Assembly (NCBI RefSeq): GCF_900089605.1
Contig: NZ_LT594324.1
Location: 4,898,001-4,962,000, forward strand
Length of the DNA: 64,000 nt
Direction of reading: 5' to 3'
DNA from: Micromonospora narathiwatensis
GTDB taxonomy: Bacteria > Actinomycetota > Actinomycetes > Mycobacteriales > Micromonosporaceae
How positions within the stretch are numbered: position 1 is the stretch's first letter; each line of letters begins with the position of its first letter. This document shows positions 4,680-47,985 of this stretch, piece after piece. The notes under the pieces are model-generated. The model did no database searches and was not told the origin of the DNA. It saw only the letters and a list, made by a program, of their open reading frames with translations. A program made the translations under genes and the position numbers.

Positions 4680-5684
4680 TCAGAACAGGGGGCGGACCAG
4701 CAGGTACGCCAGGCAGGCGATGGCCGCCGCGGCCGGGAAGGTGATGATCCAGGCGACCACGATGTTGCCGGCCACGTTCCAGCGGACCGCGGAGAGCCGC
4801 TTGGTCGCACCGACACCCATGATCGCCGAGGTGATCGTGTGGGTGGTGGAGATCGGGGCCTTCAGCACCAGGGCGTTGAAGTAGAGCACGGCGCTGGCGA
4901 CCGTCTCGGCCGCGAAGCCCTCCGGCGGACCCAGGTCGATGATCTTCCGCCCGAGGGTACGGATGATCCGCCAGCCGCCCGCGTAGGTGCCGGCCGCCAG
5001 CATGGCCGCCGAGGTCCAGAACACCCACTGCGGGATGTGCGTCTTGTCGGACTGGAAACCACCGGTGTAGAGGGCCAGCACGATGATGCCCATGGTCTTG
5101 GCGGCGTCCTGCATGCCGTGACCGACCGACATCGCGGCCGCGGAGAGGGTCTGCGCCCAGCGGAAGCCCCGGTTGAGCTTGGCCGGCTGGCCCTTCCGGA
5201 ACAGCCAGAGGATCGCCAGCATCACCAGGAAGCCGAGCACCAGGCCGACCATCGGTGAGAGCACCATCGGGATGATGACCTTGTCGATGATGTTGCCCCA
5301 CTGCACGACGCCGTCGGCGGCGAAGAGGGTCGCACCGACCAGGCCGCCGAAGAGCGCGTGCGAGGAGGAGGACGGCAGGCCGAAGTACCAGGTGATCAGG
5401 TTCCAGGCGATCGCGCCGAGCACGCCGGCGAAGACCACCCCGAGACTGGTCACCCCGGTGGGGAGGGTGACCAGGCCGTCGCCGACCGTCTTGGCCACCC
5501 CGGCGCCGAAGTGTGCGCCGACGAAGTTGCCGACGGCCGCCAGCGCGAGGGCGACCCGGGGAGTCAGCGCCCGGGTGGAGACGCTGGTGGCGATGGCGTT
5601 GGCCGCGTCGTGGAAGCCGTTCGTGTAGTCGAACGCCATGGCAACCACGATCACCGCCAGCACGGCGATGAGTTCGGGACTCAC
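4680..5684 (-). CDS. pit: Low-affinity inorganic phosphate transporter, PiT family
   Basis: A 334-residue, strongly hydrophobic permease with about ten membrane segments. The two family repeats show as NGFHDAANAIATSV near residue 22 and VGHGMQDAAKTMG near residue 193. Both are versions of the PiT signature in the two inverted halves. FGLPSSSSHALFGG and LKAPISTTHTITSA are further PiT hallmarks. It imports phosphate, probably as a metal-phosphate complex, using the proton gradient. The gene starts 4 bp after the DUF47 gene ends, so the two form one operon. Confidence 0.93.
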   Translation of the reverse strand: MSPELIAVLAVIVVAMAFDYTNGFHDAANAIATSVSTRALTPRVALALAAVGNFVGAHFGAGVAKTVGDGLVTLPTGVTSLGVVFAGVLGAIAWNLITWYFGLPSSSSHALFGGLVGATLFAADGVVQWGNIIDKVIIPMVLSPMVGLVLGFLVMLAILWLFRKGQPAKLNRGFRWAQTLSAAAMSVGHGMQDAAKTMGIIVLALYTGGFQSDKTHIPQWVFWTSAAMLAAGTYAGGWRIIRTLGRKIIDLGPPEGFAAETVASAVLYFNALVLKAPISTTHTITSAIMGVGATKRLSAVRWNVAGNIVVAWIITFPAAAAIACLAYLLVRPLF

Positions 5685-5688
5685 GGGC

Positions 5689-6315
5689 TCAGGACTCCTT
5701 GACCGCGATTGTCTCGACGGTGTTCGCCACGTGCTCGAAGGCGTCGCAGGCGGCCTCCAGCTCGTCGGCCACCTCCTTCATCTTCAGCACCGTGAGCGCG
5801 TCGTACTCACCGGAGAAGAGTCGGACGAGCAGCATCCGGTAGGCCTGGTCACCGTCGTTCTCCAGGCGGTTGCACTCGATCCAGTACTCCTCGAGGTTCT
5901 TCATCGACCGCAGCTGCGGCATCGCCTCGGCGGTCAGCTTCGCCTGCTGGTCCAGCACGTTCACCAGCTCGTGCAGCTCGCGCGGCAGCGCGGGGAGCTT
6001 GGTCAGGCCGTACAGGTAGAGCAGGTTGCCCACCGCCTCCAGGTGGTCCATCACGTCGTCGAGCAGCGAGCCCAGCCGGTAGATGTCCTCCCGATCGAAC
6101 GGGGTGATGAAGGTAGAGTTGATCTTCTTGTACAGCTCGTGGGTGATCTGGTCGCTGTCGTGCTCGACCTCGGTCAGCCGCTCGCTCACCGACTGCACGT
6201 CGACCCCGGGCAGCGCCAGTTCGTTGAGGAGTTCGGTACCCCGCACCAGGTTCTGCGCGGCCCTGGTGAAGAGCTCGTAGAAAGCGCCCTCGGTGGGACG
6301 GAAGGAAAACTTCAC
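5689..6315 (-). CDS. DUF47 (PhoU-like) phosphate transport accessory protein
   Basis: A 208-residue all-helical protein of the DUF47/PhoU-related family (COG1392). It is seen as paired helix motifs ERLTEVEHDSDQITHEL with TPFDREDIYRLGSLLDDVMD and a second half CNRLENDGDQAYRMLL. Such proteins almost always precede pit genes and are thought to modulate or gate the permease from the cytoplasm. Here it is the first gene of a two-gene operon with pit. A PHO-box-like repeat lies about 120 bp upstream. Confidence 0.9.
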   Translation of the reverse strand: MKFSFRPTEGAFYELFTRAAQNLVRGTELLNELALPGVDVQSVSERLTEVEHDSDQITHELYKKINSTFITPFDREDIYRLGSLLDDVMDHLEAVGNLLYLYGLTKLPALPRELHELVNVLDQQAKLTAEAMPQLRSMKNLEEYWIECNRLENDGDQAYRMLLVRLFSGEYDALTVLKMKEVADELEAACDAFEHVANTVETIAVKES

Positions 6316-6433
6316 AGCACGGACCTCGTCGTGTCGGTGGAAGGGTGGCCGTCGCCCCGCTGGGCGTCTGCAGAGGGCATGCTAGGTACCCCCGGGAAGC
6401 GGGCATTCGCCGGCCCACCCCTGGTCAGACCCG

Positions 6434-6466
6434 ATTTACCGCCCGTTCACCCGCCGTTTACCTTCA
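6434..6466 (+). promoter_or_regulatory. PHO-box-like triple 11-bp direct repeat
   Basis: Three contiguous 11-mers, ATTTACCGCCC, GTTCACCCGCC and GTTTACCTTCA, match the spacing and core (GTTCACC-like) of actinobacterial PhoP operators. The site covers the last codons and stop of ppk2 and lies 119-151 bp upstream of the DUF47-pit operon, whose transcription runs leftward. Overlap with coding sequence weakens the case. Confidence 0.45.
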
Positions 6467-7442
6467 TCCTCCGGCTCTCGCTCCGCAACCGCAGACGCTC
6501 CCGCTCCACGTCGAAATCCGCGGCCGGATACCCCAGATCGAGCGCGTCGAACGTCTCCCGCAGCAACTGGGCCACCGCCCAGTCGCGGTACCACTTCCGG
6601 TCGGCCGGCACCACGAACCAGGGCGCGGCGTCCGTGTCGCACCGCCGCAGCGCCTCGGCGTACGCGGCCTGGTAGTCGTCCCAGCGGGCCCGGGTGTCCA
6701 GGTCGCTCGGGTTGTACTTCCAGTGCTTCGTCGGGTCGGTGAGCCGTTCCGCCAGCCGCTCGCCCTGCTCGGCGTACGAGATGTGCAGCATCACCTTCAG
6801 CAGGGTGACCGAGTTGTCCGCCAACTCCCGCTCGAACGCGTTCATGGCGTCATAGCGGCCCCGCCAGGTGGCCTCGTCGACCAGCGACTCGACCCGGCCG
6901 ATCAGCACGTCCTCGTAGTGGGAGCGGTTGAAGATCCCGACGTATCCGGGCGGCGGCAGGGCGCGCCGGATCCGCCAGAGGAAGTCGTGCCGCAGCTCCT
7001 CCTCGGTCGGCGGCCCGAACGAACGGATGTGCAGCCCGAGCGGGTTCATCGCGCCGGCCACCCGCTTGATCGTGCCGTCCTTGCCGCCGCAGTCCATCGC
7101 CTGGAGCACCAGCAGCACCCGGCGCGGGCGACCACCCGCCAGGTACGCGCCGGCCTGGCTCGGGGCGCTGGCCGGCGCCTGCGCACCGGTGGCGGCCTTC
7201 GCCGACGCGTACAGCATCTCCTGCTGGCGGCCGAGTTCCGCGCCGAGCAGCCCGACCTGCTTGCGCGCCCACTCCTTGGGCCGGCTCCCGGCCACCGAGG
7301 GCAGCCCCGGCGTCGACCGCGGATCGACGCCCGCCAGGTCCACCGGTCCGGCGCCCGGCGTCACCCGGAGCAGTTCCCGCATCGCGCCGCCCTCGGGGCG
7401 CACCGCCTCATCGACTCCGCTCATCCCCCGATCTTCACCCAC
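6447..7442 (-). CDS. ppk2: Polyphosphate kinase 2 family nucleotide phosphotransferase
   Basis: A PPK2-type kinase of about 330 residues. The P-loop is LQAMDCGGKDGTIKRV, the Walker B region GYVGIFNRSHYEDVLI and the lid-type segment VMLHISYAEQGERL. The enzyme transfers phosphate between polyphosphate and nucleotides in the cytoplasm. The sequence does not settle whether it favours AMP, ADP or GDP. The true start could be 18 bp further in (MSGVDEAV). With DUF47-pit immediately downstream and pstB nearby it belongs to a phosphate-handling neighbourhood. Its 3' end overlaps the PHO-box-like repeat. Confidence 0.9.
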   Translation of the reverse strand: MGEDRGMSGVDEAVRPEGGAMRELLRVTPGAGPVDLAGVDPRSTPGLPSVAGSRPKEWARKQVGLLGAELGRQQEMLYASAKAATGAQAPASAPSQAGAYLAGGRPRRVLLVLQAMDCGGKDGTIKRVAGAMNPLGLHIRSFGPPTEEELRHDFLWRIRRALPPPGYVGIFNRSHYEDVLIGRVESLVDEATWRGRYDAMNAFERELADNSVTLLKVMLHISYAEQGERLAERLTDPTKHWKYNPSDLDTRARWDDYQAAYAEALRRCDTDAAPWFVVPADRKWYRDWAVAQLLRETFDALDLGYPAADFDVERERLRLRSESRRMKVNGG

Positions 7443-7479
7443 CCGGCCAACCCCCGCCTCCCGAGCAGAACGCCCGCCC

Positions 7480-7506
7480 CGTCACAAAAGCGGGCGGCGG
7501 GGCGTC
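7480..7506 (+). promoter_or_regulatory. ECF41-type autoregulated promoter
   Basis: C-GTCACA (7480-7486), a spacer of exactly 16 nt, then CGTC (7503-7506). This agrees at all but the first base with the published ECF41 consensus TGTCACA-N16-CGTC. It lies 47 bp upstream of the ECF41 sigma gene itself, consistent with autoregulation. Confidence 0.75.
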
Positions 7507-7552
7507 CCAGGGGTACGGGGAGAATGTGGGCTCCGGCGGGAGGGAGCGGGAC

Positions 7553-8506
7553 ATGGTGGATCTGGCGGCGGAGTTCGAGGCGGAACGGGGGCACCTGCTG
7601 GCGGTCGCGCACCGGATGCTGGGCAGCCGGAGCGAGGCCGAGGACGCGGTGCAGGAGACCTGGCTGCGGTACGCGAAGGCGCTCGCCGACCCCGCCGACC
7701 GCGCCCAGATCCGCGATCTGCGCGGCTGGCTGACCACCACCTGCTCGCGGATCTGCCTGGACGTGCTCCGCTCCGCCCGGGTACGCCGCGAGGCGTACCC
7801 CGGTCAGTGGCTGCCGGAGCCGGTGGTGACCGACGTGCCCGCGGTGGACGGCTTCGCCCCCGACCCGGCCGAGCGGGCCGTCCGGGCCGAACAGCTCGGC
7901 ACCGCCCTGCTGGTGGTGCTGGAGCGGCTGACCCCGGAGCAGCGGGTGGCGTTCGTGCTGCACGACGTCTTCGCCGTGCCCTTCGGCACCGTCGCCGACG
8001 TGCTCGGCACCACCCCTGTCGCAGCCCGGCAGCTCGCCTCCCGGGCCCGCCGGGCGGTGGCCGGGCCGGACAGCCCACGGCACACCGCCGACCTGGCCGA
8101 GCAGCAGCGGGTGCTCACCGCGTTCGTGGCCGCGGTGGAGTCCGGGGAGCTGGACGGGCTGGTCCAGGTGCTCGCCCCGGACGTGGTGATGATCGGCGAC
8201 GGCGGCGGGCACGTCCCGGCGGCCCGCCGGCCGGTGGTCGGCGCCGTCGCCGTGGCCCGCTTCCTCCTCGGCCTCTTCGGCCAGGCCGCCCGGCACGGCG
8301 GCCGGCTGGTGGCCCGGCCCGTGCTGGTCGACGGCGCACTGGGCTGGCAGGCGGAGACGGTGTACCGGGGGCAGCCGCTTCGCATGGTCACCTCGTTCGC
8401 CGTGCACGACGGCCGGGTCACCGGGGTGTTCAACCAGGTCAACCCGGAGAAGGTGGCCCGCCTGGCCGGGCTCGGGGCGGACGCCGACTGGCCGCCGCGC
8501 TGGTAG
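7553..8506 (+). CDS. ECF41-family RNA polymerase sigma factor with SnoaL-like C-terminal domain
   Basis: A sigma-70 family ECF factor of 317 residues. Sigma2 includes AHRMLGSRSEAEDAVQETWLRY, sigma4 includes LTPEQRVAFVLHDVFAVPFGTVADVLGTT, and a C-terminal SnoaL-like domain follows. The three ECF41 marks are visible: WLPEP in the linker, DGGG (residue about 215) and NPEK near the end, replacing the usual NPDK. In ECF41 the C-terminal domain acts as a built-in regulator. I use the ATG at 7553 because GGGAGGGAG precedes it by 6 nt; a GTG at 7526 is possible. The usual partner oxidoreductase/epimerase/decarboxylase gene is not adjacent. Confidence 0.88.
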   Translation: MVDLAAEFEAERGHLLAVAHRMLGSRSEAEDAVQETWLRYAKALADPADRAQIRDLRGWLTTTCSRICLDVLRSARVRREAYPGQWLPEPVVTDVPAVDGFAPDPAERAVRAEQLGTALLVVLERLTPEQRVAFVLHDVFAVPFGTVADVLGTTPVAARQLASRARRAVAGPDSPRHTADLAEQQRVLTAFVAAVESGELDGLVQVLAPDVVMIGDGGGHVPAARRPVVGAVAVARFLLGLFGQAARHGGRLVARPVLVDGALGWQAETVYRGQPLRMVTSFAVHDGRVTGVFNQVNPEKVARLAGLGADADWPPRW

Positions 8507-33572: not shown

Positions 33573-33677
33573 GTATGCAGTTGTGCGGTCAAGTCTATGC
33601 GGGGTCCGCCGCCAGCGCGACCAGGTGTTCCACCTGGTGAGCCGGTGAGTCGGGAGACACGTGGCAGGATCGCCGGG

Positions 33678-34064
33678 ATGGGGATGACGGCACGGCTCGG
33701 CGCGCTGGCCGGCACCGTCCTACTCGCCGCCTGCACGCCCGTACCGACCGGCACCCCGGTCGGCGGCGGCGACGCGCCGATCCGGTCCACCACCGCCACT
33801 CCGGACCTCGCCGCCTGCCCCGCCGACGGGATACGCATCACCGCGCTCGGGGTGAGCGCCGCGATGGGCCTGCGGGCGATGGGCCTGGATCTGGTCAACT
33901 GCGGGACCGGGCCGTACGCGCTGGAGGGTCACCCGGTGCCGCGGCTCCGGGGATCGATCGATCTCGGCAACACCGGCCGGCTCGGGGTCAGCGCCTGGAA
34001 GCGGGACGACCGTCCCGCCCCGACGCCCAGCGCCCCACCCCCCGTCCCCGACAGCCGCCGCTGA
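33678..34064 (+). CDS. Short DUF4232-like lipoprotein
   Basis: A predicted lipoprotein of 128 residues with lipobox LAAC near residue 19 and a Thr/Pro-rich linker. ACPADGIRITALGVSAAMGLRAMGLDLVNCGTGPYALEGHPVPRL resembles the first half of DUF4232. The tail then jumps to DLGNTGRLGVSAWKRD, which in related proteins closes the domain, so a central part may be missing. The ATG at 33684 is an alternative start. Function unknown; anchored outside the membrane. Confidence 0.62.
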   Translation: MGMTARLGALAGTVLLAACTPVPTGTPVGGGDAPIRSTTATPDLAACPADGIRITALGVSAAMGLRAMGLDLVNCGTGPYALEGHPVPRLRGSIDLGNTGRLGVSAWKRDDRPAPTPSAPPPVPDSRR

Positions 34065-34141: not shown

Positions 34142-34564
34142 TCAGGCCAGGCGCGGTGGCGGGGTGGGGCGGCGGCGCAGCTTCGCGTCCAGCGCCAGGT
34201 TGCCCGGGCCGAGCACCGCGATGAGCACGAACGACCAGCAGAAGAGGGCGGCCATCTCACCGCCGTTGCGCAGCGGCAGCAGCCCGTGCGGTTGGTGCAC
34301 CACGAAGTACGCGTACGCCATGGAGCCGGAGGCGAGTAACGCCGCGGGCCGGGTCACCAGGCCGACGAGCACGAGGCCGCCGCAGACGAGTTGGATCAGC
34401 GCGGCCCACCAGCCGGGCCACTGCCCGACCGGGATCGCCTTGCCGCTCATCTGGTTGCCGCCCAGCACGCCGAAGACCGACGCCGCGCCGTGGCAGACGA
34501 AGAGCAGACCGATGACCATGCGGAACAGGGAGAGTGCGGGACCGTTCAGCCGGGCCGGAACCAT
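34142..34564 (-). CDS. DoxX family membrane protein
   Basis: A 140-residue protein with four membrane helices, starting MVPARLNGPALSLFRMVIGLLFVCHG and including GGLVLVGLVTRPAALLASGSMAYAYF, the DoxX pattern. Some DoxX proteins act with superoxide dismutase or rhodanese in redox defence; the role here is unknown. Start chosen at the ATG preceded by GGAGG at 5 nt. A CebR-like palindrome lies 110 bp upstream. Confidence 0.83.
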   Translation of the reverse strand: MVPARLNGPALSLFRMVIGLLFVCHGAASVFGVLGGNQMSGKAIPVGQWPGWWAALIQLVCGGLVLVGLVTRPAALLASGSMAYAYFVVHQPHGLLPLRNGGEMAALFCWSFVLIAVLGPGNLALDAKLRRRPTPPPRLA

Positions 34565-34674
34565 CAGAACCTCCATTGACGAGGATGGATGGATTCCAGG
34601 ATGCGACTCGAACGTATCGAAGTTAATAAATTCCTTCCTGGTGGGACGATCCGCAATGCCCCTGTTCAGAAGAG

Positions 34675-34727: not shown

Positions 34728-35615
34728 TCAGCTCGTGACGTCCTTGCGGGTGAAGCGCCAGAACGCCAGCGCCCAGAATCCGGTGGCGTAGACGATCGCC
34801 GAGATGGCTCCGCGTACCAGGTCGTCGGTCTGCACCGGGGTGGAGAGCAGGCCCAGCCAGGCGCTGCTGTAGTGGGTGGGCAGGAACGCGCGCAGCCCGC
34901 CCAGCGCGGTGATCTGGTCCAGGATGCTGGAGAGGATCCAGAGCAGCACCGCCCCGCCGACCGCGCCGAGCGCGGCGTCCGTGGTCACCGAGAGCAGGAA
35001 CGCCAGGCCGGCCACCACCAGCAGGATGATCGCCAGGTAGCCGAGCACCGCGAGCAGGCGGAGCAGCCCCTCGGCCGGAGGCAGCTCGGCGGAGACCTGG
35101 CTGCGCAGCGGGGACCAGCCGTACCGGAGGGTGCCGGCGAGCAGCGCGGTGCCGGCGAGCAGCAGCAGGGCCAGCCCCGAGTACGCGAGCGCGACCAGCA
35201 GCTTCACCGTCAGCAGCCGGGCCCGGGGAACCGGGATCGCCAGCAGGTAACGCAGGCTGCCCCAGCTCGCCTCGCTGGCCACCGTGTCCCCGCAGAACAG
35301 CGCCACCACCACGACCAGCAGGAACGATGACGACACGAAGATCGAGAAGAGGGTGAAGTTCAACCCGCCGGAGACGGCCAGGTCGACCAGGCTGCCGAAC
35401 TCGTTGTTCCGGTTCCGGTCCGCGTTGCCGGAGTTGAACTGGAACGCGATCAGGATGATCAGCGGCAGCAGCACCATGAACCCGAGCGCGAGCTGGGTAC
35501 GCCGCCGCGCCGCCTGCCGGCCGAACTCGGCCCGGAACGGCAGGGTCGCCGACGGCCGGTAGCCCGGCGCCGCTCCGCCCCGGCCCGCCGTACGCACGGA
35601 TGACGACTGTCCCAT
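34728..35615 (-). CDS. ABC-2 type permease
   Basis: A 295-residue membrane protein. After a soluble N-terminus come about six helices (LALGFMVLLPLIILIAF, SSSFLLVVVVALFCGDTVASEASWGSLRYLLAIPVPRARLL and others, abbreviated). GDTVASEASWGSLRYLL is the typical ABC-2 permease loop. It overlaps the end of the hydrolase-ATPase gene (TGATG), so the two are translated together and form one transporter. The GTG 3 bp earlier is an alternative start. Confidence 0.85.
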   Translation of the reverse strand: MGQSSSVRTAGRGGAAPGYRPSATLPFRAEFGRQAARRRTQLALGFMVLLPLIILIAFQFNSGNADRNRNNEFGSLVDLAVSGGLNFTLFSIFVSSSFLLVVVVALFCGDTVASEASWGSLRYLLAIPVPRARLLTVKLLVALAYSGLALLLLAGTALLAGTLRYGWSPLRSQVSAELPPAEGLLRLLAVLGYLAIILLVVAGLAFLLSVTTDAALGAVGGAVLLWILSSILDQITALGGLRAFLPTHYSSAWLGLLSTPVQTDDLVRGAISAIVYATGFWALAFWRFTRKDVTS

Positions 35616-38485
35616 CACCGGTCCCCGCTCCCCCGAGAGTTCTCGCCGACCAGGGCGAGGAACGCGTCCTCCAGGCGACGCCGGGGCACCACCCGGTCCA
35701 CCCCGATGCCGGCCCGGACCAGCTCGGCCACCACCTCGCTGCGGGCGGTGCCGTTGGTGTCCACCACCAGCCCGCCGTCCCCGCCGGGCAGCACCCGTAC
35801 GCCGTCCAGCCGGTCGAGCACGCTGCGCGCCGCGTCCGGGTCGCTCACCTCGAAGAGCACGCTCGGCGACTCGCCGACGATGTCCTCGACCGGACCGGAG
35901 GCGACGATCCGCCCCTTGGTCACCACGACGGCGTGGGTGCAGGTCTGTTCCACCTCGGCCAGCAGGTGGCTGGAGACCAGCACCGCCCGGCCGTCGGTGG
36001 CGTACCGCTGGAGCACCCGGCGCATCTCGGCGATCTGCGGCGGGTCCAGGCCGTCCGTCGGTTCGTCGAGCACCAGCAGCTCGGGCAGGCCCAGCATGGC
36101 CTGCGCGATGGCGAGCCGCTGTCGCATGCCGTGGCTGTACTTGCGGGTCTTGCGGTGCACCGAGTCACCCAGCCCGGCGATCTCCAGCGCCTGGTCGAAG
36201 TGCGCCTCCGCCCAGGGCCGCCCGGTCGCCCGCCAGTACGCCTTGAGGTTCTCCAGGCCGGACAGGTGCGGCAGGAAGCCCGGCCCCTCCACCAGCGCAC
36301 CGATCCGGGAGAGCACCGGCGAGCCGGGCACCAGCCGGTGCCCGAAGACGTAGATCTCGCCGGCGGTGGGCTGGGTCAGCCCCATCAGCACCCGCAGGGT
36401 GGTGGTCTTGCCGGCGCCGTTCGGCCCGAGCAGGCCGACCACCTGGCCGGGGTGCACCTCGAAGTCCACGTTGGAGACGGCGACGAAGCCGTCCGCGTAC
36501 TCCTTGCGGAGCTGGCGGACGGCGAGCGGCACGCCCGCGTACTCCGGGTGGACCGAACTGTCCTGGCGGCGGTGCCGGCGGCGGGCGAGCAGGACGACCA
36601 CGGCGAGCCCGACCGCGATCGCGGCGAGCAGGCCGACCAGCGCCCAGCGCCAGACGGTGGCCGTGGTGGGGATCGGCTGGGCGTCGACCGTGGGCAGGGT
36701 CAGCGGGCCGCCGCCGAGGGCGACGGTGTGCACGGCCGGCTCGGCCGGGGTCGCGTACGCCTGGTCGGAGGTGGACACGACGACCCGCAGCCGGTGCCCG
36801 GACTCGATCCGGCGGACGATCGCCGGCAGGGTGACGGTGACCGGCTGGGCGGCGTCGATCGTCGCCGGCAGGCCGGTCAGCCGGACCGGCGCGACCAGGC
36901 CGTCGGGCAGGGTGGCCGCGCCCTTCGGATCGACGTCGTAGAGCTTGACGAAGAGCACCGCCGCGCCGGTGGGCGAGGCCGCCCTGATCCGTACGGTCGG
37001 CGCGCCGACCACGTCGACCGGCTCGGCCAGCGGCTCGGACTCGAACCGGGCGTGCTGGCCGGGGATGTCCCCCGCCACCCCGTTCAGCAGCGAACCGATC
37101 GCCCCGGCGAACGGCACCGAGGAGATCGCCGCCGGGTTGCCGTTGGGCGGGTTGGCGATCGGCCGGGCCGGGCCGGTCAGCGTGACCTCGGTGCGCCCCT
37201 GCCCGGCCACGCCGGGATAGTCGGCGGTGTGGTAGCCGGTGGCCACCAGGCCCCGGTCGAGCGCGTCGAAACCGGCGATCCGGGAGAAGGTGAAGGACCC
37301 GCCCGGCGCCGAGCCCTCGCCCTTGACGTAGTGGTCGAGCCACTGCGCGGTGAGGAACTTCACCCGGTCGGAGTCGGAGGTGGGACCCGCGCCGCCGTCG
37401 TGGCCGCCGGTGAACCAGGCGACCCGGACGGGGGTGCCGGCGGCGGCGATGCCGCGCGCGTTGGCGTCCGCCTCGGTGAGCGGGAAGAGGGTGTCCGCCT
37501 CGCCCTGCACCAGCAGGGTGGGCGCCTTGATCCGGTCGAGCACCCCGGCCGGTGAGGAGCGGCGCAGCAGCTCGACCGCCTGGGCGTCGGCCCGCCCGGT
37601 GGTGGCGATCCGCAGGTACGCGGCGCAGACGTCGGCGGCGAACCGACCGCAGGACGGGTCGGCGGGGCCCCCGGGCACCCGCCCGGAGCTGGTGCCGGGA
37701 CCGGCGCCAGGCTGCGGGCTGGGCGCGCCGGCCGACGCGGGGGCGCCCTCGGGCTGGCCGGCGGTGTTGCCGGAGACGCCGGCCGGGCCCGAGCCGACGT
37801 TGCCGCCGCCGCCGAAGAAGAGGCCGGCCCAGCCCTTCTTGAACACGCCCTCGGTGGGTTCCTTGCCGGTGCTCTCCGGCAGGAACGACCGGGACAGGTC
37901 GTTCCAGGTGATCATCGGGACGACCGCGTCGACCCGGCTGTCCTGCGCGGCCAGCAGCAGGGCCAGGCCGCCGCCGTACGAGCCGCCGACCACGCCGACC
38001 CGGGGGTCACCGGCCGTGTCGAGGCGGATGTCCGGGCGGGCGGCGAGCCGGTCGATCAGGCGTTGCGCGTCCCGCACCTCGTAGTCCGGGCTGTCCAGGT
38101 GGATCTCCCCGCCGCTGCGGCCGAAGCCCCGCGCCGTCCAGGTGAGCACGGCGTACCCGTGGCCGGCCAGGTCCTCCGCGTCGGCGCGGACCGACTCCTT
38201 GGTGCCGCCGAAGCCGTGCGCCAACAGCACCGCCGGGACCCGGTGCCGGGCCGAGGCGTCGCGCGGCAGATAGAGCGTGGTGTCCAGGTCGACCGGCTGG
38301 TCGCCGGCCGGTCCGGAGCGGACGGTCACCAGCGCCGACTCGGTCCGGAACCCGGGCCGCTGCGGCCGGGCCGCCCAGGCCACGGCGGCGGCCACCAGGA
38401 CGACCGCCACCGCCCCGGCGACGACCCGGCGGCGGCGGGTGGCCAGGGCACGCCGGATCCGCGCGGCGGCGAGCGGTGATCTCAT
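35615..38485 (-). CDS. Fusion of S15-type alpha/beta hydrolase and ABC transporter ATPase
   Basis: A 956-residue protein with a clear order. An Arg-rich start and membrane helix (20-39) lead into an X-Pro dipeptidyl-peptidase/CocE-like hydrolase (AVLLAHGFGG; nucleophile GGSYGGG near residue 168; Gly/Pro-rich insertion near 260-310). A jelly-roll C-terminal domain of the PepX_C type (about 480-600) follows, then a second helix (about 614-636). The end is a complete ABC ATPase: Walker A GPNGAGKTTT (about 687), signature YSHGMRQRLA (about 783), Walker B LLVLDEPTDGL. The hydrolase should lie outside and the ATPase inside. It is followed by its permease. Confidence 0.9.
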   Translation of the reverse strand: MRSPLAAARIRRALATRRRRVVAGAVAVVLVAAAVAWAARPQRPGFRTESALVTVRSGPAGDQPVDLDTTLYLPRDASARHRVPAVLLAHGFGGTKESVRADAEDLAGHGYAVLTWTARGFGRSGGEIHLDSPDYEVRDAQRLIDRLAARPDIRLDTAGDPRVGVVGGSYGGGLALLLAAQDSRVDAVVPMITWNDLSRSFLPESTGKEPTEGVFKKGWAGLFFGGGGNVGSGPAGVSGNTAGQPEGAPASAGAPSPQPGAGPGTSSGRVPGGPADPSCGRFAADVCAAYLRIATTGRADAQAVELLRRSSPAGVLDRIKAPTLLVQGEADTLFPLTEADANARGIAAAGTPVRVAWFTGGHDGGAGPTSDSDRVKFLTAQWLDHYVKGEGSAPGGSFTFSRIAGFDALDRGLVATGYHTADYPGVAGQGRTEVTLTGPARPIANPPNGNPAAISSVPFAGAIGSLLNGVAGDIPGQHARFESEPLAEPVDVVGAPTVRIRAASPTGAAVLFVKLYDVDPKGAATLPDGLVAPVRLTGLPATIDAAQPVTVTLPAIVRRIESGHRLRVVVSTSDQAYATPAEPAVHTVALGGGPLTLPTVDAQPIPTTATVWRWALVGLLAAIAVGLAVVVLLARRRHRRQDSSVHPEYAGVPLAVRQLRKEYADGFVAVSNVDFEVHPGQVVGLLGPNGAGKTTTLRVLMGLTQPTAGEIYVFGHRLVPGSPVLSRIGALVEGPGFLPHLSGLENLKAYWRATGRPWAEAHFDQALEIAGLGDSVHRKTRKYSHGMRQRLAIAQAMLGLPELLVLDEPTDGLDPPQIAEMRRVLQRYATDGRAVLVSSHLLAEVEQTCTHAVVVTKGRIVASGPVEDIVGESPSVLFEVSDPDAARSVLDRLDGVRVLPGGDGGLVVDTNGTARSEVVAELVRAGIGVDRVVPRRRLEDAFLALVGENSRGSGDR

Positions 38486-38848
38486 GCGGCACACGGTACG
38501 GCTCGAACCCTGTGTGGTACCTGAGATCCGCCGTACGGCCGTCCGGCTGCCTCGTTCGGCGGGTGGATCCGGTCGACCGTGGAACGCCGAGCGCATTCCG
38601 GCGAACGGAATTCTGATCGCGTGAATTCACGCCTACGCCCGCAAAACGCCACCGATCCGGCTATCTCGGCGACCGTCGCAAACCGCTGCGTGGTCACCGC
38701 ACAACGAGCCGTGACACAGCCCGAAGTGACGCTAAGCCGACTCGGCGCGGGCCGTCACGCCTCGCGTGGGTCCGCTAACTTCCGGTCCGTTGCAAAGGAT
38801 TGCGCACGCAGTCAGTCCAGACCGACCCCGTCATGAAGGACCATCACG
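38486..38848. other. Divergent intergenic region
   Basis: A 363-bp gap between the divergent hydrolase-ABC and roadblock genes. It contains a perfect 14-bp palindrome GCGTGAATTCACGC at 38619-38632 and is AT-richer than its flanks toward the right. No gene seen. Confidence 0.5.
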
Positions 38849-39352
38849 GTGACCAGCCCCTTCCGGCACGACAACGTCGAGCGGCAGCGCCCCGCCGGGG
38901 CACCCAGCCCCGAGGCCCGCACCTTCCACTGGCTGCTCGACTCGTTCACCTCCAGCACGGCCGGGGTGGTGGAGGCGATAGCGGTCTCCGCCGACGGGCT
39001 GCTGATCGCCACGTCGGGCAGCAAGGACCGGTCCAACGCGGAACGGCTGGCCGCCGTCGTCTCCGGCATGACCAGCCTCGCCGGGGGCGCCGCGAAGTGG
39101 TACGCGCTGGGCGCCCTCAACCGGGTGATCGTGGACATGGCCGAGGGGTACCTGCTGATCGGCGCGATCAGCAGCGGCTCGGTGCTCGGCGTGGTCGCCG
39201 ACCGCTCGGCGAACCTCGGCACCGTGGCGTACGAGATGACGCTCTTCGCCGGCCAGGCCGGCGGGACGCTGAGCCCGCGGCTGATCAACGAGCTGAAGAA
39301 CGCCGTACCGCCACCCGTGGCGGACCGGGCGGGCCGGGCGAAGGGAGCCTGA
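38849..39352 (+). CDS. Roadblock/LC7 domain protein (CvnB-like)
   Basis: A 167-residue protein with one roadblock domain: FHWLLDSFTSSTAGVVEAIAVSADGLLIATS opening it, later MAEGYLLIGAISSGSVLGVVADRSANLGTVAYEM. In actinomycete conservons such proteins regulate a small GTPase together with a sensor kinase and DUF742 protein. None of those partners is next to it here. The GTG has a GAAGGA site 8 nt before it. Confidence 0.87.
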   Translation: MTSPFRHDNVERQRPAGAPSPEARTFHWLLDSFTSSTAGVVEAIAVSADGLLIATSGSKDRSNAERLAAVVSGMTSLAGGAAKWYALGALNRVIVDMAEGYLLIGAISSGSVLGVVADRSANLGTVAYEMTLFAGQAGGTLSPRLINELKNAVPPPVADRAGRAKGA

Positions 39353-39479: not shown

Positions 39480-41777
39480 GTGGCGGAACCCGAGCTGACC
39501 CTGACCGCGAGTCTGCGGCCGGCCGCGCTGGACGCCCGGCGTGGCGTCGTCCGCCTGCACCCGGAGGTGCTGACCGCGCTGGCGCTGCGTCCCGGCGACC
39601 CGGTCCGGCTGGCCGGCCGCCGGGTGACCGCCGGCATCGTCGCCCCGGCCGAGGCGACCGCGAGCAGCGCGCTGCTCTACGCCGACGACCTGATCCTGGG
39701 CAACCTGGGCCTGCGCGACGGCGGGCAGGTGCGGGTCAGCCCGCTGCCGGTGGTCCCGGCCCGCGCGGTGACCCTGGCCGGCCCGGTCGGGATCGTCGCC
39801 GCGGTCTCCCCGGAGATGCTCCGCCTCGCCCTGCTCGGCAAGCCGGTCACCACCGGCGACGACGTCTCGCTGCTGCCCCAGGACGTGCTCCCCGACGCCG
39901 CGGTCCGCGGTCTGGTCGAGGCCGCCCGGCGCAGCCTCGCCAACACCGTCGGGTACGCCTGGACCAGCACCCTGCTCACCGTCGTCGCGGCCGATCCGGC
40001 GGCCGGCGCGCTGGTCACCATGGACACCGTGGTCGGCTGGGAGCACGGCCCGGCCACCCGCGGCTCCGGGACGGCCGGCCAGGACCCGAGCGGCCGGCTG
40101 GCCCCCGACGCGACCGGGGCCGGCGGCCGGGCGCCGATCGACCGGCCGGGCGGGATCGGGGCCGAACGGGCCTCGGCGGCCCCGCCGGAGCCCGGCCTCG
40201 CCGAGCCGACGGAGGCGCCGGGCCTCGACGAACTGCCCGGGCTGCGGGCCCAGGCCGAGGAACTCACCGAGCTGCTCGACCTCGGTTTCAACCACCGGGA
40301 GGTGCTGGGCCGGCTCGGCACCGCCGTGTCGCTGGGCGTCCTGCTCAGCGGGCCGGCCGGCTCGGGCAAGTCGGCGCTGGTCCGCGCGGTCGCCGCCCGG
40401 GTACGCGCCCGGGTGTGCCCGCTGTGGGCGCCGGAGCTGGCCGCGCTGACCAACGACGCGGCGGCCCGCCGACTGCGCGAGGCGGCCGGGGCGGTACGCG
40501 CGAACGGCCCCGCCGTCCTGCTGGTCACCGACATGGAGGCCGTCGCCCCGGCCGACGAGCCGGGACCGCTGGCCACGGTGTTCCGGCAGGTCGTCGCCGA
40601 GACGGTCCGGGCCGGGGCGGCCGTGGTCTGCACCACCGGCCGCCCCGAGGCGGTGGACCCGGCCCTGCGCGCCCCGGACCTGCTCTCGCTGCGGATCACC
40701 GTCCCCCTGCCCGACCAGGCGTTGCGGCGGGAGATGCTGACCGTGCTCACCCGACAGGTGCCGCTCGCCGAGGACGTCCGGCTGGACGAGGTGGCCGCCC
40801 GTACGCCGGGGTTCGTCGCCGCCGACCTGGCCGCGCTGGTCCGCGAGGCCGGCGTACGCGCCGCGCTGCGGCAGAAGACGGCCGAGACGCCGACGGTGGC
40901 GATGGCCGACTTCACCGCCGCGCTGGAGGTGGTCCGGCCCACCACGATGGCCGGGTCCACCCTGGAACTGGCCTCGGTGACCCTCGACGACGTCGGGGGC
41001 CTGCACGAGGTCAAGGAGACGCTGACCGAGTCGGTGCTCTGGCCGCTGACCTACCCGGACACCTTCGCCCGGCTGGGCGTGACGCCCCCGCGCGGGGTGC
41101 TGCTCTACGGGCCGCCCGGCTGCGGCAAGACGTACCTGGTCACCGCGCTGGCCGGCTCGGGGCGGGCGAACGTGCTGTCGGTGAAGGGCGCGGAACTGCT
41201 CTCCAAGTGGGTGGGCGAGAGCGAACGCGCGGTCCGGGAGCTGTTCCGCCGGGCCCGGGAGGCCGCGCCGACGCTGGTCTTCCTGGACGAGGTGGACGCG
41301 CTCGCCCCGGTCCGCGGTCAGGCCACCGACGGCGGTACGACCGACCGGGTGGTGGCCGCCCTGCTCACCGAGCTGGACGGGGTGGAGGCGCTGCGCAACG
41401 TGGTGGTGGTCGGCGCGACGAACCGGCCGGACCTGGTCGACCCGGCGCTGCTCCGCCCCGGGCGACTGGAACGGCTGGTGTACGTGCCACCGCCGGACGG
41501 CCCCGCCCGGGCGGAGATCCTCGGGGCCGCCGCCCGGAACGTCCCGCTGGCCGACGACGTCGACCTGGCCGCGCTCGGCGCGGAGCTGGACGGCTTCTCG
41601 GCGGCCGACTGCGCTGCCCTGGTCCGCGAGGCGGCGCTGGCGGCGATGCGCGAGTCGCTGGCCGCCGCCACGGTCACCGCCGCGCACGTCGAGACCGCCC
41701 GCGCCCGCGTCCGCCCCTCCCTCGACCCCGCCCAGGTCTCCTGGCTCGCCGCCTACGCCGAGAAGCAGACGGGCTGA
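39480..41777 (+). CDS. CDC48/VCP-like double AAA ATPase
   Basis: A 765-residue protein: a CDC48 N-domain (1-200), a Pro/Gly linker and two AAA modules. The second is intact: Walker A YGPPGCGKTY (about 545), Walker B TLVFLDEVDALAP (about 603) and arginine fingers in LLRPGRLERL. The first keeps its P-loop (GPAGSGKSA, about 291), but Walker B reads LLVTDMEAV instead of xxxxDE, and the arginine-finger motif is replaced by RAPDLLSL. Ring 1 probably binds nucleotide without hydrolysing it. Such ATPases unfold proteins; the partner is unknown. Confidence 0.9.
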   Translation: MAEPELTLTASLRPAALDARRGVVRLHPEVLTALALRPGDPVRLAGRRVTAGIVAPAEATASSALLYADDLILGNLGLRDGGQVRVSPLPVVPARAVTLAGPVGIVAAVSPEMLRLALLGKPVTTGDDVSLLPQDVLPDAAVRGLVEAARRSLANTVGYAWTSTLLTVVAADPAAGALVTMDTVVGWEHGPATRGSGTAGQDPSGRLAPDATGAGGRAPIDRPGGIGAERASAAPPEPGLAEPTEAPGLDELPGLRAQAEELTELLDLGFNHREVLGRLGTAVSLGVLLSGPAGSGKSALVRAVAARVRARVCPLWAPELAALTNDAAARRLREAAGAVRANGPAVLLVTDMEAVAPADEPGPLATVFRQVVAETVRAGAAVVCTTGRPEAVDPALRAPDLLSLRITVPLPDQALRREMLTVLTRQVPLAEDVRLDEVAARTPGFVAADLAALVREAGVRAALRQKTAETPTVAMADFTAALEVVRPTTMAGSTLELASVTLDDVGGLHEVKETLTESVLWPLTYPDTFARLGVTPPRGVLLYGPPGCGKTYLVTALAGSGRANVLSVKGAELLSKWVGESERAVRELFRRAREAAPTLVFLDEVDALAPVRGQATDGGTTDRVVAALLTELDGVEALRNVVVVGATNRPDLVDPALLRPGRLERLVYVPPPDGPARAEILGAAARNVPLADDVDLAALGAELDGFSAADCAALVREAALAAMRESLAAATVTAAHVETARARVRPSLDPAQVSWLAAYAEKQTG

Positions 41778-46975: not shown

Positions 46976-47985
46976 GCGCCCCAACCTCCTCCGGTGCTGC
47001 CGCCGACGCCCGGCTCAGCGACCCTCGTGGACTCGTCGACCTGCCGGTGCTGGCCGGGGACCGGGGCGGTGGCGGTCAGTTCGAGGAAGACGCTCTCCAG
47101 GTCGACCGCGACCGGCGTCAGCTCGCTGACGTACAGGCCCTGCTCGGCGAGGAGGCGGCTGACCGTGGCCGGCTTGTCGACGCCGCCAAGCATCAGGTGG
47201 TCCGGTTCCGTGGTGGTGACCCGGATCCCGGCCCGGGTGAGCGTCTCGGCGGCCTGTGGCAGATCGGTGACGGCCTCCAGCCGGACCCGTACGGTGCCGT
47301 GCGAGTGGGCGGCGAGCACCTGCTCGACCGGCCCGAACGCGACCCGCCGGCCCAGCGAGATGATGGTGACCGAGTCGCAGATGAGCTGGATCTCGCCGAG
47401 AATGTGGCTGGAGAGCACCACGGTCATGCCCGAGGCGGCGAGATCCCGCATCAGGCTGCGCATCTCCCGGATGCCACCGGGGTCGAGACCGTTGGCGGGC
47501 TCGTCCAGAATCAGCAGCTTCGGGCTCTTGAGCAGCGCCGAGGCGACCGCGAGCCGCTGCTTCATGCCGAGCGAGTAGGTCTTCACCCGCTCGCCGGCCC
47601 GGTCGCGGAGCCCGACCAGTTCCAGTACCTCGTCGACCCGCTGCCGGGGCAGCTCCCCGGCCTGGGCGAGCAGGCCGAGGGTGTCGCGCGCGGAGAAGTG
47701 CGGGAAGAACTGCGGGCTCTCCACGATGGCCCCGACCTGCCCGGCGACGGTCGGCAGCGCCTGCGGCAGCTCGTGGCCGAGGATGGCCATCCGGCCGCCG
47801 TTGGGCCGGATGAGGCCGAGCAGGGTACGCAGCGTGGTGGTCTTGCCCGAGCCGTTCGGGCCGAGGAAGCCGTGCACCTGCCCGGCCTCGACCAGCATGT
47901 CGAACCCGTCGAGCGCGTGGCGTGTCCCGCGCTTTCGGCTCCGGTACGTCTTGCGGAGACCCTCGATCTCCAGGACAGCCGTCAA
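46972..47985 (-). CDS. ABC transporter ATP-binding protein
   Basis: A 337-residue ATPase of the exporter (DrrA/NatA-like) type: Walker A LGPNGSGKTTT, Q-loop VESPQFFP, signature YSLGMKQRLAVA, Walker B LLILDEPANGLDP, H-loop LSSHIL. The C-terminal extension resembles DrrA-type regulatory tails. Start TTG with GGGAGG 5 nt upstream. The promoter region contains two similar palindromes, so it is probably repressed by a GntR-type regulator that is not encoded nearby. Confidence 0.9.
   Translation of the reverse strand: MTAVLEIEGLRKTYRSRKRGTRHALDGFDMLVEAGQVHGFLGPNGSGKTTTLRTLLGLIRPNGGRMAILGHELPQALPTVAGQVGAIVESPQFFPHFSARDTLGLLAQAGELPRQRVDEVLELVGLRDRAGERVKTYSLGMKQRLAVASALLKSPKLLILDEPANGLDPGGIREMRSLMRDLAASGMTVVLSSHILGEIQLICDSVTIISLGRRVAFGPVEQVLAAHSHGTVRVRLEAVTDLPQAAETLTRAGIRVTTTEPDHLMLGGVDKPATVSRLLAEQGLYVSELTPVAVDLESVFLELTATAPVPGQHRQVDESTRVAEPGVGGSTGGGWGA

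Follow-up and report, generated by a model that had tools for sequence, protein, structure and literature searches.

A single gene of the soil bacterium Micromonospora narathiwatensis encodes a CocE-type serine hydrolase and an ATP-binding cassette (ABC) ATPase in one 956-residue chain, and its stop codon overlaps the start of an ABC-2 permease gene. The fused gene is an unbroken frame at 35615-38485 on the minus strand of a 64,000-nucleotide stretch (the window), which corresponds to positions 4898001-4962000 of a host genome assembled as a single contig of 6.6 Mb; that genome shows one hydrolase-ATPase fusion of such kind. The fusion, its intact active-site residues, the overlapping permease gene and the conservation of this arrangement are evident at the level of sequence. 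The reading favored here, with a probability of roughly one half, is that the two genes form an ABC-2 exporter or flippase whose nucleotide-binding subunit would bear an extracellular CocE/PaL-type serine esterase. The features on which this reading draws are the following.

35615..38485, minus strand: fused gene, 956 amino acids (aa), with first membrane helix (TM1), CocE-type hydrolase, second membrane helix (TM2) and ABC ATPase (open frame, Pfam)
38363..38434, minus strand: TM1, residues 18-41, preceded by positive residues (hydropathy 2.53, charge bias)
37322..38359, minus strand: alpha/beta-hydrolase catalytic domain, residues 43-388 (Pfam, models)
37979..37981, minus strand: catalytic Ser169 (GGSYGG), in 127/127 aligned proteins
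Residues about 231-274: variable insert in the hydrolase domain, of low confidence in the models
Residues Cys279 and Cys287: conserved pair in the hydrolase domain, in 21/21 non-redundant fused proteins and at least 90% of 42 alignment rows
37493..37495, minus strand: catalytic Asp331 (DTLFP), in 127/127 aligned proteins, DxLFP being common to PaL
37400..37402, minus strand: catalytic His362 (GGH), in 127/127 aligned proteins
36674..37294, minus strand: PepX_C-type jelly-roll, residues 398-604 (Pfam PepX_C, beta strands in models)
36572..36664, minus strand: TM2, residues 608-638, with an Arg-rich stretch on its C-terminal side (model helix, hydropathy 2.97, charge bias)
35876..36529, minus strand: ABC ATPase domain, residues 653-870 (Pfam), with Walker A, signature, Walker B and H-loop intact
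Residue Glu733: at the Q-loop position of the ATPase, invariant in 42 rows and 28/28 fused proteins
35618..35875, minus strand: C-terminal extension, residues 871-956, with a conserved LEDAFL motif
34728..35618, minus strand: ABC-2 permease, 296 aa, translationally overlapping (Pfam PF12679, 47.9 vs 27.2 bits)

An earlier, sequence-only reading of the window had described one polypeptide with two membrane helices, a hydrolase and an ABC ATPase, and the open frame, Pfam and hydropathy bear this out. Along the chain Pfam places Peptidase_S15/Abhydrolase, PepX_C and ABC_tran in that order, all above their cut-offs (ABC_tran 105 bits; Abhydrolase_1 62.7; Peptidase_S15 64.4, covering just 132 of 262 profile positions; PepX_C 58.3, covering 114 of 217), and hydropathy peaks at residues 18-41 and 609-637 flank the hydrolase. 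The same reading called the S15 hydrolase complete, which is too strong by Pfam, where half of the profile is matched, but agrees with the predicted model, which shows the whole two-domain fold. The full-length predicted model has helices at residues 5-38 and 608-638; because its mean predicted local distance difference test score (pLDDT) is 82.5 and its predicted template modeling score (pTM) 0.62, the relative placement of the domains within it is not confident. A longer start at 38596, giving 993 aa, is possible, but many close relatives of the fused protein align from residue 1 at 38485. The overlap of the fused gene's stop with the permease start, also noticed earlier, amounts to 4 nucleotides (nt) if the permease begins at GTG or 1 nt if it begins at the ATG at position 35615.

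The distribution of the fusion among relatives is revealing of its authenticity. Comparison of the last 250 residues reduces the 200 fetched loci with the hydrolase to 151 distinct ones, and setting aside 13 incomplete frames leaves 138, of which 128 are fused. One of these (L191, a single 977-residue frame) was added to 127 scripted calls; the script had overlooked it because the ATPase match extended beyond the stop codon. Sampling leaned toward fusions in that 80 loci come from the top of a list of 431 matches (the closest 80, Micromonosporaceae), and toward exceptions in that eight loci (L173-L180) were fetched for their short frames in the order and phylum draws; the even draw of the phylum thus gives a fairer figure than 128/138. 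In that draw 26 of 396 genomes match the hydrolase, and among these 23 are fused, two (G222 and G065) are unfused and one (G364) is cut by a contig end. An even draw of the order gave 152 of 200 genomes matching at an expectation value (E) of 1e-40. The set of the host plus 40 relatives yields matches to the hydrolase part (E 0.001) in 38 of its 41 genomes, although not all such matches are fusions (the frame is 744 residues long in G031 and 712 in G033). The fusion spans Micromonospora to other classes of Actinomycetota, and the top identity to the fused gene, 94%, belongs to Micromonospora sp. MP36 (among named loci in the best 80 of 431). Close relatives do not carry the hydrolase and ATPase as separate genes; they are fused. 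An assembly or frameshift artefact is rejected, since the fusion recurs in 128 of the 138 distinct complete relatives and the host assembly is one contig, and because many related actinobacteria keep the fusion beside the same permease gene, it is real rather than a sequencing accident. The sequence-only reading had also raised the matter of how often the permease follows: it is the next gene, starting within 600 nt, in 127 of 127 fused loci with at least 500 nt downstream.

The ten unfused members of the 138 are L149, L173-L180 and L206. In L173 the hydrolase and the ATPase occupy separate frames that overlap (5470-8489), and the permease follows; this is either a true split or a sequencing slip. 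Six others (L174-L178 and L180), from one family of the order, have hydrolase frames of 668-766 residues without an ABC part or permease in the flanking sequence, and are possibly a stand-alone form of the hydrolase. In L179 (2673-6265) a stand-alone hydrolase is oriented divergently to two ABC ATPase frames of a different type, which share 25-31% identity with the ATPase of the window. A plasmid search returned seven records, four of them outside Actinomycetota with 14-25% of the query covered; the two of these four that were inspected, from Marinobacter and Vibrio, contain the hydrolase with no annotated ABC neighbor. A Tsukamurella plasmid record contains a fusion protein of the present kind, annotated simply as 'alpha/beta fold hydrolase' beside an 'ABC transporter permease'.

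The identity of the hydrolase bears on what it may cleave. Taken alone, the hydrolase part scores 81.1 bits against the CocE/NonD model TIGR00976 (cut-off 66.3) but only 31.5 bits against the NCBIfam Xaa-Pro dipeptidyl-peptidase model (cut-off 642). The PaL lipase (PDB 8YZN, 8YZO) is the best match across both domains, by profile and by structure, at 23% identity, and the Ser169-Asp331-His362 triad is in register with it. The earlier label of an X-Pro-peptidase-like enzyme is weakened accordingly. There are also differences from these known enzymes: the solved members listed for CocE/NonD, a family that includes cocaine esterase, are free enzymes, whereas here a membrane helix stands on either side of the domain, which is joined to an ATPase, and PaL is without an ABC part.

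The charge distribution around the helices suggests how the chain is placed in the membrane. Among 21 non-redundant fused proteins less than 75% identical, the set in which the cysteine pair was also counted, net charge drops from the N-terminal to the C-terminal side of TM1 in all 21 and rises across TM2 in 20, the remaining one being a tie. Because of this bias and the conserved Cys279/Cys287 pair, the N-terminus is predicted to lie inside, the hydrolase outside and the ATPase inside, which supports the layout proposed by the sequence-only reading.

Catalytic and ABC motifs, the latter previously noted as complete, are conserved across the aligned proteins. In an alignment that retains near-copies, the triad residues are present in 127 of 127 proteins, including the stand-alone L141 and L149; all 125 fused ones have Walker A, signature, Walker B and H-loop, and 124 of them the D-loop Asp. 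In the C-terminal extension L938, E939, D940, F942, L943 and L945 are invariant in 42 rows. Pairwise ratios of nonsynonymous to synonymous substitution (dN/dS; Nei-Gojobori, own count) between the window and seven relatives are 0.19-0.45 for the hydrolase domain, 0.04-0.31 for the ATPase domain, 0.41-1.13 for TM1 and 0.15-1.12 for the linker and TM2. Because these ratios are low in the domains and reach about 1.1 in TM1 and the linker, they indicate that the two domains are under purifying selection and that the membrane letters are hardly constrained; the linker and TM2 are without conserved letters in the 21 non-redundant fused proteins.

The pair has the defining parts of an ABC-2 transporter, namely an ATPase in which Walker A, signature, Walker B and H-loop are all present, and an ABC-2 partner permease. 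The permease passes the Pfam cut-offs of ABC2_membrane_2 (PF12679) and ABC2_membrane_4 (PF12730) and at E 0.001 matches ABC-2 families exclusively, with no match of FtsX/MacB type. At E 0.001 the host genome yields no second match to it, and a PDB search with its sequence gave no match up to E 10. Regarding the origin of the ATPase, a tree of 28 fused proteins (the window and 27 relatives) and the 13 top-scoring host paralogues of 134 other matches separates the fused ATPases from the paralogues as two groups (support 100/99); this compares host paralogues alone, and nearer unfused ATPases may exist elsewhere. Fused ATPases of other classes are 55-62% identical to that of the window, and host paralogues at most 45%. 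A single early fusion event would be the simplest reading of these comparisons. Another exporter-type ABC ATPase encoded in the window (47077-47919, minus strand) likewise has Glu at its Q-loop position and pairs in the tree with an ATPase near genome position 70846.

In the proposed exporter or flippase, one transporter would consist of two copies each of the fused chain and the permease. Cytoplasmic ATP hydrolysis would move an amphipathic, probably acylated compound out of the membrane or its inner leaflet. At the exit the esterase domains would cleave an ester of that compound, which may render the step irreversible or free the product. Vertical inheritance together with changing neighbors suggests an envelope housekeeping compound as substrate rather than one antibiotic. 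The sequence-only reading had offered export or capture; capture is the less likely half because the families matched by the ATPase and the permease are exporter-type and ABC-2 ones and because no substrate-binding protein was found among the neighbors scanned with Pfam (DoxX and six others, a subset of the neighboring frames).

Alternatively, the pair may be a detoxification pump for self-protection, which extracts membrane-active natural products and hydrolyses them in the manner of a LanFEG/BcrAB-type exporter combined with an NSR-type hydrolase. A Glu replacing the Gln of the Q-loop is a mark of BcrA/LanF-type ATPases. This residue is present in 28 of 28 fused ATPases and is common to 6 of the 13 closest host paralogues, and the two best curated ATPase models are lantibiotic protection (TIGR03740, 167.4 bits) and daunorubicin resistance (162); the ABC-2 permease is a further likeness to LanFEG/BcrA-type exporters. 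A membrane-anchored serine protease, SaNSR, likewise acts beside an exporter, NsrFP, in one system, according to the part of PMC5786555 that was available, in which neither 'Q-loop' nor 'E-loop' was found. However, the ATPase is below cut-off for each of the best 25 of 189 curated models (309.75 bits for TIGR03740), as is the permease for the lantibiotic MutE and MutG models (13.2 vs 145.2 and 12.4 vs 117.2 bits). The system also differs from LanFEG/BcrA in having one permease gene, not two, and an enzyme carried by the fusion, and from NsrFP/SaNSR, which are separate proteins with another protease family and a BceAB-type permease. Furthermore, the neighbors in different families are of housekeeping type (UvrB/UvrA, a threonine-synthase-like pyridoxal phosphate (PLP) enzyme and a double-AAA ATPase) and the fused ATPases form a single group, so that a detoxification role is regarded as unlikely.

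A peptide exporter whose outer X-Pro or amino-peptidase trims the exported peptide is doubtful on the hydrolase scores given above: the Xaa-Pro model is missed by a wide gap, S15 matches over half its profile and the PaL lipase is nearer in sequence and structure. The chaplins, which occur near the pair in some Streptomyces-type genomes, were moreover not found in the host.

FtsEX switches or positions cell-wall hydrolases, and a comparable surface enzyme gated by ATP without transport can be conceived here, in which the ATPase cycle would act through TM2 and the permease on the outer hydrolase. The covalent joining of hydrolase to ATPase by one continuous predicted helix and the regular presence of the permease gene (127 of 127 fused loci) are consistent with such a device. 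Nevertheless, FtsEX-like mechanotransmitters are defined by an FtsX/MacB-type permease, and the permease here matches ABC-2 transport families alone; because the linker and TM2 are without conserved letters, a precise lever is disfavored, and gating of this kind appears rather improbable. Mere co-anchoring, in which the fusion fixes the place and ratio of an enzyme and an exporter with unrelated substrates, might be read from the related hydrolases that occur alone (L149, L174-L180 and L206) and the hardly constrained membrane letters, but is very improbable given that 23 of the 26 matching genomes in the phylum draw are fused, which suggests that the link itself matters.

Processing of the cargo of ABC exporters is usually done by separate enzymes. 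The fused gene instead gives one chain whose catalytic and motor domains are predicted to lie outside and inside the cell, respectively, with a permease of the same type encoded next to it. Should the favored exporter or flippase couple transport to cleavage, the system would offer a simple entry point, by genetics and biochemistry, to the way in which actinobacteria complete or modify an envelope or secreted compound, and would test whether internal ATP use can drive or gate an external enzyme. A broader and quite tentative proposal is that such proteins constitute phylum-wide 'exo-enzyme ABC subunits' coupling ATP use and extracellular ester cleavage in one polypeptide, either as cut-at-exit or as ATP-gated enzymes.

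A Hahella chejuensis protein provides a precedent for joining a serine-hydrolase domain to an ABC ATPase within one polypeptide (DD-peptidase (S12)-ABC_tran; PMC2605481), although in the portion of that survey available it is a single sequence and of another hydrolase family. Section 2.9 of PMC11878206, on domains joined to alpha/beta-hydrolases, names no ABC ATPase. No account of a CocE-ABC or S15-ABC fusion was found in the literature searched, which included available parts of PMC5786555, PMC9902596, PMC2605481 and PMC11878206, with most subscription journals outside it. The parts belong to known families and their fusion is undescribed in that literature.

The gene neighborhood of the pair varies. 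Divergent neighbors in the window are, by Pfam, a Roadblock/LC7-domain protein (38849-39352, plus strand) and a double-AAA ATPase (39480-41777, plus strand), the latter CDC48-like with CDC48_N itself below cut-off; this gene adjoins the pair and remains near the fusion in several families. A PLP-enzyme gene resembling threonine synthase lies near the pair in the host family and some others, and uvrB in L173, L184 and L191, with uvrA in two of these three (both by Pfam). A horizontally moved resistance cassette is not supported, given these housekeeping-type neighbors and the one group formed by the fused ATPases. Downstream of the permease is a DoxX-family membrane protein (34142-34576, minus strand; Pfam); its gene is not supported as a third member, as the gap is 151 nt and in relatives the distance is variable or the gene was not found. 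A small DUF4232 protein, lipoprotein-like by eye (33597-34064, plus strand), is variable in place or was not found in relatives.

A role in chaplin/rodlin processing was also considered and is rejected, since chaplins were not found in the host and occur in just 1 of the 41 genomes of the host-and-relatives set, while 38 of 41 match the hydrolase. Ten loci are of Streptomyces type, as judged by an inferred name, with chaplin matches in the flanks of five, presumed rodlin-like genes, for which Pfam gave no domain, in seven, and neither in three. In seven loci (L188, L189, L193, L195, L196, L198 and L199) the pair lies near chaplin (Pfam) or rodlin-like genes, often with an aldehyde dehydrogenase gene.

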